Notes under the pieces: generated by a model
Database searches by the model: none
What the model was told of the DNA's origin: nothing
What the model saw: only the letters and a program-made list of their open reading frames with translations
Made by a program: the position numbers and the translations under genes
Assembly (NCBI GenBank): GCA_019417795.1
Contig: DXUR01000058.1
Location: 1-12,009 of the forward strand
Direction of reading: 5' to 3'
Origin: Clostridiales bacterium
GTDB lineage: Bacteria > Bacillota_A > Clostridia > Oscillospirales > Oscillospiraceae
DNA: 12,009 nt
Shown: positions 2,316 through 12,009 of the stretch, piece after piece
How positions within the stretch are numbered: the stretch's first letter is position 1
How the letters are laid out: every line of letters starts with the position of its first letter

Positions 2316-2344
2316 TTGACAACCTCCGCAACGTATGGTAAGAT
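2316..2344 (+). promoter_or_regulatory. Near-consensus sigma-A promoter for non-coding RNA
   Basis: TTGACA at 2316-2321, a 17-bp spacer and TAAGAT at 2339-2344. The expected transcription start is near G2351, the first base of a 9-bp helix of the RNA. The same promoter is repeated at 11961-11989. No start codon with a ribosome binding site and usable reading frame follows on this strand for over 600 bp. Confidence 0.85.
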
Positions 2345-2350
2345 GTTCTT

Positions 2351-2907
2351 GGATAGGAAAGGCTGCGGTAGACGCTGGATCGAAGCCTTGAAAGAAAGGG
2401 GGTATGGATGGCGGCTGCGAGTGGTGTGTGATTGGCAGCAGAAGTGAAGAACGAAGCTCGTCTGGGCGAGGGTAAATAGTAATTAGGCCCAGAGCGTCTT
2501 GGCTGGCAGATCTGCCGGTCGGGGGTTTAGCAATTTGCTAATCAGAAGCCACTTCAGGTACGATACACCTGTGTGATGCGTGGGCTTGCCGTAGTAACCT
2601 TTGTGAACTGGAAAGCGCATCATGGACCCGGCATGAGTAATCCTTTTGAAAGTGTCGGTAAGTAAAACGTATCTGTTCCTATCCACTTTCTGATAGTAGC
2701 CGGAATACTGTAGATCTTCCGGAGAGCTGCTTCCTCTACAAAGAAGCCGACAGAATCTGAACTGCCGTAGATCTCAATAAATCAGAGCTGCACACATAAG
2801 CAGATCAAAAAAGTGTAGGGAGCAATCCCAAACCCGTCATACATAAGACGTTAAAAAGTGTATTTTGCCGATTGTCGAGTCTCCGAATGGAGCTGGCATG
2901 AGGCGGC
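2351..2907 (+). ncRNA. Candidate large structured non-coding RNA (possibly ROOL class)
   Basis: About 560 nt with no plausible gene but dense self-complementarity. A perfect 9-bp helix joins 2351-2359 to 2676-2684 and closes a multi-branched domain. Inside are local stems at 2457-2470 (its loop also pairs with 2488-2493), 2503-2518, 2527-2541, 2555-2571 and 2574-2580/2616-2622. The 3' part has stems 2700-2705/2717-2722, 2818-2829 (GGGA, a GCAA tetraloop, TCCC), 2835-2850 and 2867-2907 with an inner CTCC/GGAG hairpin. The length, ornate fold, own promoter and mobile-element setting match what is known of ROOL RNAs (about 580 nt, Firmicutes, phages and plasmids). I assign ROOL only tentatively, as I cannot run a covariance model. 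The 3' end is uncertain, because no T-tract terminator follows and transcription could run into the recombinase gene. A second copy begins at 11996. Confidence 0.65.
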
Positions 2908-2922
2908 TTAGCTTGAACGAAA

Positions 2923-2990
2923 AATATAGAAGTCTATAAAACTAAGAAAATGGTTATGTAGTTTTATAGAAATATAGATTTATACAAAAA
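2923..2990. promoter_or_regulatory. AT-rich region with inverted TCTATAAAACT motifs upstream of recombinase gene
   Basis: Perfect 11-bp arms TCTATAAAACT (2933-2943) and AGTTTTATAGA (2960-2970), with further ATATAG units at about 2924 and 2973. The sequence resembles the AT-rich regions before the genes at 7452 and 8514; for example, TTTATAGAAA is shared with the parA upstream region. It could be an operator bound by the plasmid RHH protein, a recombination site for the adjacent integrase, or a promoter region. I cannot decide among these. Confidence 0.45.
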
Positions 2991-3013
2991 TAGACGCACG
3001 AAAGGAAGTCGGA

Positions 3014-4036
3014 ATGGGGCGTAGAAATAAAGCGTACTTCAAGGATCTGCACCAGCAAGCCTATGACCGGCTTACCGGGATGCAGGCTTTTGGCGAGAGC
3101 AAAAAAGAGGCGGTAGCCAATGGCACAGAGAAAGATAAAATATTTGCGTTCAACACCTATAAGAGCTACTGGAAACATACCAAATATTTTATCAAGTACA
3201 TCAAGGAGAAGCATCCGGAGTGTACCACGCTGAAGAGTGCAAAGAAGTATGCTAATGAATGGCTTCAGACCAGAGTGGATCAGGGGCTTTCAGCGTGGAC
3301 GGTGCAGCTCGAAGCGAAAGCGCTGGGAAAGCTATACGGGATTTCCCCGGATGACGAGAATTACTTTAATCCGCCCAAGCGAAAACGTGAGGAGATTAAA
3401 CGGAGCCGGGGGGACCGGGTGCGGGACAAGCATTTCTCCAAGACGAACAATGATGAACTGATAAAATTTTGCAGAGGGACCGGTCTGCGGCGAAAGGAGT
3501 TGCAGGAGCTGCGTGGGAAAGATCTGGTGCCCAGGGCGCAAATTGAGGCGGAGATCTCCGAGCTGCAGAAGATCCCAGAGGAGCAGCGAGTACCGAGTGT
3601 CACAAAACGCCTTGAAATGCTCCAGGACGCACGTTTGTTTCCGGAGGAGTGGTTTGTCCATGTCCGCAACGGAAAGGGCGGACGAGAGCGTTTAAGCCCG
3701 ATTATAGGCAAAAATGCGGGGCAGATCATTGAACGGATAACTGATACACCGCCAGAGGAGAAGGTGTGGCAGCACGTCCATAATTGCGCCGACATCCACG
3801 GTTATCGTGCGGAGTATGCCACGGCAATCTACAAGGCTCATGCCAGGGCAATCGAAGAGATTCCCTATGACCGGGTAAACCGTGGCACCGGGCGGCGTTA
3901 TCAAAGCGAGGTTTATACTTGCCGAAAAGATGAAGCGGGGAAGAAGCTGGACAAGGCTGCTATGCTGATCTGCAGCAAGGCGCTGGGGCATAACCGTATT
4001 AGCGTTGTAGCGGATAACTACATTCGGGGCCTGTAA
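3014..4036 (+). CDS. Tyrosine recombinase / integrase
   Basis: A 340-aa site-specific recombinase of the phage-integrase family, which cuts and rejoins DNA through a covalent 3'-phosphotyrosine. An N-terminal SAM-like core-binding region spans about 45-115. The catalytic domain from about 140 has the full active-site set: Arg in GTGLRRKEL (R159), Lys in NGKGGRERL (K221), HGYR (H262, R265), LGHNR (H326) and the nucleophile Tyr in NYIRGL (Y336). GAAAGGAAG lies just before ATG 3014. The protein ends four residues after the nucleophile, which is normal. It sits directly after the large RNA and the AT-rich inverted repeats. It is followed by a gene of unknown function whose GTG starts 14 bp downstream. 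It may integrate the element, resolve plasmid multimers or recombine cassettes; the sequence does not say which. Confidence 0.93.
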   Translation: MGRRNKAYFKDLHQQAYDRLTGMQAFGESKKEAVANGTEKDKIFAFNTYKSYWKHTKYFIKYIKEKHPECTTLKSAKKYANEWLQTRVDQGLSAWTVQLEAKALGKLYGISPDDENYFNPPKRKREEIKRSRGDRVRDKHFSKTNNDELIKFCRGTGLRRKELQELRGKDLVPRAQIEAEISELQKIPEEQRVPSVTKRLEMLQDARLFPEEWFVHVRNGKGGRERLSPIIGKNAGQIIERITDTPPEEKVWQHVHNCADIHGYRAEYATAIYKAHARAIEEIPYDRVNRGTGRRYQSEVYTCRKDEAGKKLDKAAMLICSKALGHNRISVVADNYIRGL

Positions 4037-4050
4037 GGAGGTGCGCTGCC

Positions 4051-4821
4051 GTGGGCGAGTTTGTAAAGAAAACTGCATTTGGATATAAGCCGACAAGTGG
4101 TGGCCGCTCTGACCCGGAATGCACCCATGTGATTTTGACGGAAGACGAATATGATAGATTGCTGCAACAGATATCCGGTGCAGAGCAGGAGGTCAGGAAT
4201 GCAAAGTACGATGCAGATAAAGAGATTCGTCGAGTACAGATTGACGCTCAAAGAAGAATAGAATCTACGGAGTGTGAAGCAGCGAAGGATATAGAATATC
4301 TGGAAAAGGCATTGGCAGCAGAACAAAAGGAAAGTGCGCTGCAGCGAGGGCTGAATGCTAATTTGCTGCGGATCGCACGGGAACGAGCCAACGCGGATCG
4401 GAAGTTGAAGCCGAAGAAGGAACATACCGGGTATGTTGTGGTGTCATCGATGGAGAAGGAACACCGCTACAAAGATGGAAATGGGCGCTGGCGTGCAGTA
4501 GTGCTATGGGAAACGGTGCTGGAGACGCCATATACTGTGGATTTTTGCGTGGAAGAGGTTAGACATCTGATACAGGAACTGTTTCAGGATGACGAGGAGG
4601 GGAACTGGCTGATTGGAAAAATCGGCATCACTGAAAACTATCCAAAAGGCTATGCCAATATGATCTACGACAAGGACTGGAGAGAAGAGTATCGCAATTA
4701 TAACGTGATGCTGGAGCGCCGGTTGAAAGCAAACTACAGGACCGGCTTTTGGGAGATGATATTCCTGCATACGAAGCCGCTGGCTGCTGTCCCTTCAGAT
4801 ATGAGAGCGGGACGAAATTAG
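4051..4821 (+). CDS. Hypothetical protein with N-terminal coiled coil
   Basis: A 256-aa protein with a GTG start and a strong AAGGAGG about 10 bp upstream. Residues about 30-115 are rich in Glu, Lys, Arg, Ala and Gln without proline (for example AEQEVRNAKYDADKEIRRVQ), strongly suggesting a coiled coil. The C-terminal part (about 125-245) is a compact alpha/beta-looking domain with many aromatic residues (YVVVSSMEKEHRYKDGNGRW, EMIFLHTKPL). There is no signal peptide or membrane segment, so it is probably cytosolic. It is likely co-transcribed with the recombinase, 14 bp upstream, and precedes the structured region before the replication gene. A mobilisation, recombination-accessory or replication-accessory role would fit the context, but I recognise no family and make no functional call. 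Confidence 0.8.
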   Translation: MGEFVKKTAFGYKPTSGGRSDPECTHVILTEDEYDRLLQQISGAEQEVRNAKYDADKEIRRVQIDAQRRIESTECEAAKDIEYLEKALAAEQKESALQRGLNANLLRIARERANADRKLKPKKEHTGYVVVSSMEKEHRYKDGNGRWRAVVLWETVLETPYTVDFCVEEVRHLIQELFQDDEEGNWLIGKIGITENYPKGYANMIYDKDWREEYRNYNVMLERRLKANYRTGFWEMIFLHTKPLAAVPSDMRAGRN

Positions 4822-6717: not shown

Positions 6718-6996
6718 ATGAATATGATTCGACCAGTATCAGATTTGAGAAATAATTTTGCGGATATTTCAAAAACGGTTCATGAGACGGCGAAGCCTGT
6801 TTTTCTGACAAAAAACGGATATGGCGATATGGTTGTTTTGAGCATGGAAGCGTTTGAAAATTTGCAGTTTGAGAGTGAGGTATATTTTAAGCTGCAGGAA
6901 GCGGAACGAGAGGCCGAGATGACCGATAAGCGATACTCATCTAAAGATGTATTGAAGATGATGAAAGAGGCCATAGGAGGAGAGCAGGTTGTATAA
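6718..6996 (+). CDS. Phd/YefM-family antitoxin
   Basis: A 92-aa protein. The N-terminal part (IRPVSDLRNNFADISKTVHETAKPVFLTKNGYGDMVVLSMEAFENL) is the classic Phd/YefM DNA-binding fold. The charged, helical C-terminus (about 58-92) is the part expected to wrap around and neutralise the toxin. GAGGTGAT lies just before ATG 6718. The stop overlaps the toxin gene by 8 bases, so the two are translationally coupled. It should repress its own operon through the palindrome at 6673-6704. On a plasmid the pair would act as an addiction or stability module. The family call rests on motif resemblance and on the partner gene. Confidence 0.92.
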   Translation: MNMIRPVSDLRNNFADISKTVHETAKPVFLTKNGYGDMVVLSMEAFENLQFESEVYFKLQEAEREAEMTDKRYSSKDVLKMMKEAIGGEQVV

Positions 6997-7297
6997 TCTG
7001 GAATATCTGCCAGTGGCCCGCCAGGATATGATCGATATTGTTCGGTATATTAGTAGAGAGCTGAACAATCCAACGGCTGCGGAGAGTCTGGCTGTAGAAC
7101 TGATTGACGCTGGAAATCGTATAGCAGATTTTCCGTATGCCAATCCTGCTTATGTACCGATTCGTCCACTAAAGCATGAGTATCGGAAGTTGCTGATACG
7201 GAACTATTTGATGTTCTACTGGGTGAACGAGGAAAATAATTCGGTAACAATTGCTCGCGTAATTTATGCCAAGAGAGATTACGAGAAGATGCTATAA
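6989..7297 (+). CDS. RelE/ParE-superfamily toxin
   Basis: A 102-aa protein starting at TTG 6989, with AGGAGG at 6975-6980 and an 8-nt gap. No ATG occurs nearby until codon 13. The sequence YLPVARQDMIDIVRYISRELNNPTAA at the N-terminus and RKLLIRNYLMFYWVNEENNSVTIARVIYAKRDYEKML at the C-terminus are typical of the RelE/ParE fold. Members are either mRNA-cleaving (RelE, YafQ, YoeB) or gyrase-poisoning (ParE), and I cannot decide between these from sequence. It overlaps the antitoxin gene by 8 bases and ends just before a strong hairpin at 7328-7381. The length is normal for the family and the frame is intact, so it is probably functional. Confidence 0.9.
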   Translation: MYNLEYLPVARQDMIDIVRYISRELNNPTAAESLAVELIDAGNRIADFPYANPAYVPIRPLKHEYRKLLIRNYLMFYWVNEENNSVTIARVIYAKRDYEKML

Positions 7298-7327: not shown

Positions 7328-7381
7328 ATAACAACACAAAAAGAGGCAGGACATATGTTCTGCCTCTTTTTGTGTTGTTAT
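7328..7381. terminator. Near-perfect 54-bp palindrome, probable bidirectional terminator
   Basis: Centred at 7354/7355, with arms 7328-7354 and 7355-7381 that pair throughout except one G/T pair (7350, 7359). The arms contain AAAAAGAGGCAG and CTGCCTCTTTTTG, so an A-run precedes and a T-run follows the GC part on either strand. It closes the TA operon. Confidence 0.85.
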
Positions 7382-9544: not shown

Positions 9545-9561
9545 GGCAATCGCCGATTGCC
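9545..9561. repeat. Short inverted repeat GGCAATC-GCC-GATTGCC
   Basis: A 7-bp stem with a 3-base loop, 21 bp after the RHH gene. There is no T-tract, so it is at best a weak terminator. Its right arm GATTGCC is also found at 2-8, in the same place relative to the first XRE palindrome. This implies the window starts just inside an equivalent junction. Confidence 0.5.
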
Positions 9562-9562
9562 T

Positions 9563-9590
9563 AAATGTAAACCGCGTGCGGTTTACATTT
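9563..9590. promoter_or_regulatory. GTAAACCGC palindrome (candidate operator), cassette 2
   Basis: Perfect 13-bp arms, 9563-9575 (AAATGTAAACCGC) and 9578-9590, with a GT centre. It matches the palindrome at 11-34 in sequence and in distance from the XRE gene. TTTACA in the right arm (9582-9587), a 17-bp spacer and TAAATT (9605-9610) make a plausible promoter overlapping it. Confidence 0.68.
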
Positions 9591-11897: not shown

Positions 11898-11938
11898 TAA
11901 CGGTTTACCCGTTTATATTATGAACGGGTAAACCGTTA
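11898..11938. promoter_or_regulatory. Long palindrome upstream of second RNA promoter
   Basis: Perfect 16-bp arms, 11898-11913 and 11923-11938, around a 9-bp AT spacer. It is nearly the same as 2254-2294; the spacer differs by two bases in length while the arms are conserved, as expected for a protein-binding inverted repeat. Confidence 0.7.
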
Positions 11939-11960
11939 TACGGTTAATTTTGTGGTTATG

Positions 11961-11989
11961 TTGACAACCTCCGCAACGTATGGTAAGAT
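11961..11989 (+). promoter_or_regulatory. Promoter of second large-RNA copy
   Basis: TTGACA (11961-11966), a 17-bp spacer and TAAGAT (11984-11989). It is identical to 2316-2344, including the spacer. Confidence 0.82.
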
Positions 11990-11995
11990 GTTCTT

Positions 11996-12009
11996 GGATA
12001 GGAAAGGCT
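11996..12009 (+). ncRNA. Start of a second large structured RNA, cut by window edge
   Basis: GGATAGGAAAGGCT matches 2351-2364 exactly, which is the 5' strand of the closing helix of the RNA at 2351-2907. Only 14 nt are visible, so whether a full RNA follows is unknown. Confidence 0.5.

Follow-up and report, generated by a model that had tools for sequence, protein, structure and literature searches.

A structured RNA family headed by a pistol ribozyme and linked to a recombinase gene on plasmids of gut bacteria

What is encoded by the roughly 560 nt that precede a recombinase gene on a plasmid-like element of a gut Clostridiales bacterium? The window analysed here is the entire 12,009-nt stretch of contig DXUR01000058.1, in which a large, independently promoted non-coding RNA, either of the ROOL class or of a new one, had been predicted at 2316-2907 from the sequence alone. 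Comparison with relatives points to an intricately folded RNA of about 390 bases on gut-bacterial plasmids, directly 5' of a DNA-recombinase gene and with a built-in self-cutting ribozyme, by which its front end appears to be trimmed. As judged from its sequences, the RNA family is ribozyme-headed, recombinase-linked and structured, and is absent from Rfam as a family. The RNA is undescribed in the titles and abstracts of open-licence papers, and fragments of it may be listed in a gut RNA survey, as far as the available part of that paper indicates (PMC8040213). It is also unannotated in the single complete plasmid record, that of Flavonifractor plautii (NZ_CP095095.1).

The ribozyme and the folded core

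The features of the RNA from the ribozyme to the end of the core are:
2456-2530, + strand: pistol self-cleaving ribozyme (RF02679), scoring 57.6 bits where the cut-off is 34.5
2527-2541, + strand: UUAGCA-AUU-UGCUAA hairpin of the new 5' end, sharing sequence with the pistol P2 strand
2544-2918, + strand: conserved RNA core with 14 proposed helices (covariance models R1 and R2)
2546-2550/2583-2587, + strand: core pseudoknot AAGCC/GGCUU, two pairs changed on both sides
2788-2816, + strand: first H-type pseudoknot, stem CUGC/GCAG, loop ACAC with GUGU (helices 10 and 11)
2835-2861, + strand: second H-type pseudoknot, stem CGUC/GACG, loop AUAC with GUGU (helices 13 and 14), outer pair covarying

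The pistol is the sole convincing Rfam match in the window and aligns to the full model, positions 1-68. The Rfam models for ROOL, GOLLD, OLE, HEARO and RNase P gave no match in the window at E≤1, which speaks against the ROOL assignment of the original prediction. A nearly perfect 27-bp inverted repeat with no gap at 7328-7381 accounts for spurious Rfam microRNA matches. Within the pistol, the P1 loop pseudoknot has 100% of its cells paired and 2 pairs changed on both sides; P2 near the cut has 72.2% of cells paired, with the first pair unpaired in 16 of 18 rows and two pairs changed on both sides; and the P3 stem, aligned by the covariance model, varies in length among homologues. The available portions of two pistol papers place the cut at the dinucleotide joining P3 and P2 (PMC4604425, PMC6154101); in the window this dinucleotide is G2525|U2526, and cleavage is predicted between these two bases.

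The hairpin at the resulting 5' end uses the strand needed by pistol P2. By eye it is found in 18 of the 21 pistol rows (missing from L009, L011 and G040), a rumen group retaining it with the letters ACAUUA/UAAUGU. On the alignment 79.6% of its cells are paired, a value reached in 2 of 500 shuffles, and two pairs are changed on both sides, as in 70 of 500 shuffles.

The conserved core, overall about 2526-2918, belongs to no Rfam family, which supports the other half of the original prediction, a new large RNA class; the conserved RNA ends near 2918, leading into the recombinase, rather than at 2907. For 24 core sequences (alignment A7, in which the poorly aligned row G488 was kept), the proposed structure comprises 76 pairs and includes three pseudoknots; 92.5% of its cells are paired and 40 of the 76 pairs are changed on both sides, values that 0 of 500 shuffles reach. 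Cells changed on both sides number 173 against 54 in shuffles, and structures slid along the alignment as controls are 32-39% paired; the structure was drawn from the same related sequences on which it was counted, so these controls favour it somewhat and it is the size of the effect that counts. Both tandem H-type pseudoknots are nearly invariant, and the case for them comes from conservation rather than covariation; in the first, which shows little covariation, 85.4% of the loop cells pair as aligned. Helices of the held-out loci G1026 and G1031 (strands chosen by eye), two of them in G1031 partial at 4/6 and 5/6, serve as illustration only, several of the printed positions in this check being other copies of the string. 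The proposal of a large structured RNA at 2316-2907 thus stands as to structure, by the 24-sequence comparison, and falls as to class, no large-RNA family of Rfam matching. The single-sequence fold of the region is not unusual (z -0.72; core z -1.4), and comparison was needed because this fold is no better than those of shuffles; it is in the comparison alone that structure becomes apparent.

On the + strand the structure contains 102 G-U cells against 44 A-C cells, an excess that fits a + strand RNA, the structure having been drawn with G-U allowed and so favouring G-U. This bears on a reading that we consider very improbable, namely that the region acts as DNA, as a recombination or replication site, with the RNA structure a by-product. 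Palindromes upstream and, by eye, in some spacers would suit such a site, but apart from the G-U excess, the pistol is an RNA catalyst, and the promoter position shifts together with ribozyme loss.

A protein-coding or decayed gene was considered and rejected, since few forward frames are long: the longest without a stop, in G754, has 83 codons. An antisense gene was likewise rejected: open runs of up to 125 codons occur, but in different phases in different homologues, and the earlier view that the region holds no plausible gene is upheld.

Ribozyme or promoter at one predicted 5' end

Upstream of the ribozyme, and once more at the end of the window, lie:
2254-2294, no strand assigned: conserved palindrome, arms TAACGGTTTACCCGTT and AACGGGTAAACCGTTA, middle variable
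2316-2344, + strand: TTGACA-17-TAAGAT promoter whose -10 is preceded by TG; transcription predicted to start at about 2351
2345-2455, + strand: variable 5' extension, missing or short in several lineages
2351-2359, + strand: 5' strand of a proposed long-range helix, exact complement of its partner 2676-2684
11898-12009, + strand: second copy, at 95.5% identity, of the stretch 2255-2364 (palindrome, promoter and beginning of the 5' extension), incomplete because the window ends there

The near-consensus promoter of the original prediction was recovered, and its pattern recurs in relatives, where the best pair 20-33 nt past the palindrome begins TTGAC in 25 of 27 loci and has a spacing of 17 in 26 of 27; by number alone, such a promoter is not above chance there (1 found, 1.8 expected). 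The promoter script always returns a best pair, so all positions are estimates, starts being set 6 nt downstream of the -10. Some loci have a poor -10 (TAAAAG in G075, for example), and G1026 has a poor -35. With 20-33 nt downstream searched, the best -35 follows the right arm of the palindrome (at most 2 mismatches) at a distance of 25-29 nt in 27/27 loci, and a wider search of 0-90 nt past the palindrome returns the same best -35 in 25 of 26 rows, G1031 differing; the left arm is missing from L008. The inverted repeat at 2254-2294 is thus a conserved palindrome coupled to the promoter and likely an operator or protein-binding site, and a terminator-like hairpin with a T-run is seen by eye at about 2205-2242, although the terminator scan does not list it.

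Distances were measured to a GATAC/GATGC core anchor in 27 loci (two each from F. plautii and G1026), leaving out L006 and L013, which begin inside the core, L018, L019 and L022, which are identical there to L017 or L007, and L051, a second G754 copy at a contig edge. In the 21 pistol loci, cleavage is predicted 33-37 nt before the anchor, while transcription is estimated to start 106-434 nt before it. Six loci have no pistol (L008, G075, which has a truncated recombinase, G488, G1031 and two in G1026), and their estimated start is 35-42 nt before the anchor. Since the cut and the pistol-less start fall at about the same core position, ribozyme and promoter look like interchangeable ways to the same RNA 5' end: the sequence upstream varies, and the predicted 5' end of the core is constant. 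The pistol-less loci amount to evolution's own experiment, in which the RNA should begin where the ribozyme would cut; with them, the idea that a ribozyme matures the 5' end of a large RNA can be put directly to the test. To our knowledge, what benefit pistol ribozymes bring to their hosts is mostly an open question.

The 9-bp helix between the start of the 5' extension and the core, another element of the original prediction, stood in part. Its complementarity is exact, although at least one such pair occurs in 21.7% of mononucleotide shuffles. Thirteen pistol loci with a long 5' extension retain the partner segment (altered in both F. plautii copies), and the 3' segment is absent from seven pistol loci with no or a short extension (L010, L012, L015-L017, G508 and G754, about four lineages). 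Inspection of L008 by eye suggests possible pairing between its shortened 5' end and a changed segment. The joint absence of both segments is the better support for this helix, the pairing not being significant by itself: in most of 14 loci the duplex energy of cognate extensions is no better than that of shuffled ones (the L008 row used a misaligned stretch), and cognate pairings show no general advantage over non-cognate ones. In G040 (L045, upstream of 5274), an open reading frame, seen by eye between the conserved promoter and the pistol, replaces the extension, yet the partner segment is kept; here the ribozyme would part a coding leader from the core RNA. Some loci show by eye a candidate leader peptide, short and with a Shine-Dalgarno-like run, ahead of the pistol; it was dropped, as neither its start nor its frame is conserved.

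Linkage to the recombinase and the possible role of the RNA

Downstream of the core are found:
2919-3000, + strand: variable AT-rich spacer, with 95 nt from core end to start codon in the window
3014-4036, + strand: tyrosine recombinase of 340 aa, catalytic R159, K221, H262xxR265, H326 and Y336
4051-4821, + strand: 256-aa protein with no function assigned, conserved just downstream of the recombinase (tblastn)

A recombinase search of genome contigs yielded 21 loci; their contigs measure 3.5 to 59.9 kb and are titled Oscillospiraceae, Lachnospiraceae, related genera or MAGs. A pistol lies upstream in 17 of the 20 scanned, L006 and L013 beginning inside the core and L008 having none; the 21st, L022, is identical in the region to L007 and was outside the pistol scan. 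Covariance model R1, built on the 3' part of the core, was run on genomes independently of the recombinase and matched 4/300, 2/58, 3/250, 2/246 and 6/394 genomes (overlapping sets, strict filters), giving 15 distinct loci, and R2, for the 5' part, recognises each of the nine divergent loci to which it was applied (L044-L049, L068-L070). The recombinase start follows in 13 of the 15 R1-found loci (truncated in G075), and the other two stop at a contig edge just past the core. Wherever downstream DNA is present, one tyrosine recombinase closely follows the RNA, on the same strand and with no gene between. Collected with their flanks, the homologues recast the supposed 560-nt unit as pistol plus core linked to a recombinase, an arrangement that the original prediction had missed.

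The complete plasmid of F. plautii (strain VE303-08, 21.8 kb) supports the plasmid-like setting that had been proposed: it contains two copies of the RNA, each with a pistol (2/2) and each preceding a recombinase 83% identical to that of the window. Oscillibacter sp. MSJ-31 also has two copies, of which only one includes a pistol. An apparently chromosomal copy (L008/L049) keeps core, recombinase and 256-aa gene and has no rep match. Three pistols were found among 394 genomes of the order, two in this element and one (G1089) among other short genes (by eye), and in another search each of 9 genomes has exactly one, always in this element. Viral contigs gave no relative in pattern and recombinase scans, and 50,697 phage records no match to the recombinase or the region.

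Several further observations concern the plasmids themselves. The window carries two related units, with the second RNA promoter region at 11898-12009 and a palindromic stretch before XRE genes occurring twice (1-34 and 9555-9588); the F. plautii plasmid likewise has two diverged backbones, as if related plasmids fuse. Same-genome contig pairs that are interrupted at an identical position within the RNA region (G1026 contigs C54/C81, and L006/L013) suggest that cells may carry two related plasmids at once. At 6718-7297 the window has a Phd-type antitoxin and a RelE-like toxin, the RelE match being below the curated cut-off.

From core end to start codon there are 30-160 nt in 22 loci, and only 30-35 nt in L008, L012 and L015-L019, which leaves little room for another promoter. 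In the window's own spacer no promoter- or terminator-like site was found between core and recombinase (2860-3060). Spacers of L014 and other loci contain AT-rich perfect inverted repeats (14-bp arms and a 6-nt middle in L014) that by eye resemble recombinase core sites, and the compact loci have no room for them.

The best explanation, which we favour tentatively and with slightly less than even confidence, is that the RNA is a ribozyme-matured structured leader controlling recombinase output. On the plasmid, the promoter at 2316-2344 would give a transcript comprising a leader with the pistol ribozyme, the folded core of about 390 nt and the recombinase mRNA. The ribozyme would cut co-transcriptionally at G2525|U2526, discarding all RNA upstream, and the new 5' end would form its hairpin, recapturing one ribozyme strand. 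In the least certain step, the matured core may act in cis: as a 5' leader with tertiary structure it would set recombinase mRNA stability or translation and so keep plasmid recombination, probably multimer resolution, at the right level. Sequence comparison supports the identity of the pistol, the core structure, the constant position of the predicted 5' end and the linkage to the recombinase; the RNA structure and the predicted trimming site are well supported on this basis, and the control function is what we infer. Such an RNA may reveal how plasmid recombinases are controlled. Counting against a leader, the RNA with its 390 nt and near-invariant loops is bigger than one would expect of a simple one, the cut would give the mRNA a 5'-OH end, no anti-SD switch or ligand site was identified in the core, and the spacers of 95-160 nt elsewhere could house a separate promoter or end that uncouples the RNA, the scan for such sites covering the spacer of the window.

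The longer spacers are pertinent to an alternative that we regard as unlikely, a trans-acting or scaffold RNA of the ROOL/GOLLD type, in which the core is freed from the recombinase mRNA as a stable RNA or assembly and the recombinase is a mere neighbour. In 14 of 22 loci at least 95 nt separate the core from the start codon, and the size, pseudoknots and near-invariant loops of the core resemble those of large ornate RNAs. Its linkage to the recombinase, which extends to the apparently chromosomal copy without rep, argues against this alternative, as does the lack of a terminator-like site after the core in the window; nor does the window or the F. plautii plasmid contain any tRNA gene, which sets them apart from the surroundings of ROOL and GOLLD given in the available part of PMC12286853.

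The recombinase itself has 2,905 relatives (90%-identity clusters, E≤1e-5), a count of recombinases and not of RNA carriers, and among the best 120 of these the longest contig is 27.8 kb, plasmid-sized. Its residues that we take to be the catalytic R, K, HxxR, H and Y are conserved across distant relatives (the L063 row, which is truncated at its annotated end, does not reach H and Y), and its predicted fold (pLDDT 77) is nearest to integron integrase, Cre and XerA, with Foldseek TM-scores of only 0.2-0.3. In full-length matches the recombinase is 68-96% identical, against about 40-58% for the 256-aa neighbour. This better conservation would suit a second alternative, rather improbable in our view, that the RNA is a cofactor which the recombinase binds co-translationally and needs for synapsis, site choice or multimer control. 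The catalytic set and the fold are, however, those of tyrosine recombinases, elsewhere RNA-independent, and no guide-like variable loop was found.

Distant members of the family bear on the cofactor in both directions. Relatives at 25-41% identity occur on named plasmids of Streptococcus, Caldicellulosiruptor and Natranaerobius and on pRGI00233, and ten distant small-plasmid records have 575-1,453 nt without annotated genes upstream of the recombinase, although the PLSDB gene table is incomplete and these gaps are partly open frames: an unlisted 146-codon frame in pRGI00233 leaves 178 nt, and several other gaps contain frames of at least 50 codons. Some of the stretches fold well (z -5.8 and -4.5 in Caldicellulosiruptor, -4.8 in Natranaerobius, -3.7 in S. 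infantis, -3.3 in pRGI00233), but two S. suis leaders are not unusually folded (z 0.3 and 1.3); the stretches were cut by eye, some including part of the upstream palindrome, and L065-L067 were left out. On eight distant recombinase plasmids the core models gave chance-level scores only. A two-sequence test in Caldicellulosiruptor combined a strong fold with 3 double changes against 2.8 in shuffles, and a three-sequence test in S. suis was weak. Upstream folding in distant relatives is a lead only. A bolder version, which we think quite improbable, is that this tyrosine recombinase family of small plasmids may work as a ribonucleoprotein, the leader RNA, whose exact 5' end is set by the built-in ribozyme or by a moved promoter, being a structural cofactor of the recombinase encoded on the same transcript, and that the distant small-plasmid relatives carry other large RNAs at the same place. 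Two Caldicellulosiruptor plasmids (L059, pYA01-1, and L060, pATHE02) have a well-folded stretch of about 540 nt upstream of the recombinase, possibly another large RNA, which also contains open frames of 50-115 codons. In the Streptococcus leaders L061, L062, L063 and L065, GAGGAAA is repeated several times by eye between a promoter-like site and the recombinase.

Comparison with known systems

In IS110 elements a non-coding bridge RNA lies beside the mobile-element recombinase; the recombinase here is of the tyrosine type, and no guide loops were found. Structured mRNA leaders, whether riboswitches or protein-autoregulated, share with the present RNA a conserved fold directly 5' of one gene on the same strand, but this RNA is larger and ribozyme-headed, and no known ligand or switch was seen in it. 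Like ROOL and GOLLD, it is hundreds of nucleotides long, has several pseudoknots, occurs on mobile elements and has no assigned function; it differs in giving no covariance match, lying beside a recombinase and carrying a ribozyme. ROOL and GOLLD are set in phages or prophages, often near tRNA islands, whereas 0 tRNAs were found here (window and L001) and no phage match.

Rcd of the ColE1 cer site is also a plasmid RNA at a recombination locus, and by analogy the RNA could be a dimer checkpoint made near a presumed resolution site that signals plasmid multimers to the cell, a reading we judge a long shot. The RNA does lie between a conserved palindrome and a resolvase-like gene, and the F. plautii plasmid and the window each carry two related units. 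Rcd, however, is 70 nt long and made at a site used by the host Xer recombinases, according to the available part of PMC5357621; here a multimer-dependent promoter is not in evidence.

The closest likeness is to the pistol family (RF02679) itself: 2456-2530 passes the family score, the whole model is aligned and the loop pseudoknot covaries. In the accessible text of PMC4604425, the published pistol context is mostly near phage genes. Here the pistol heads a much larger conserved RNA, and where it is missing the promoter has moved.
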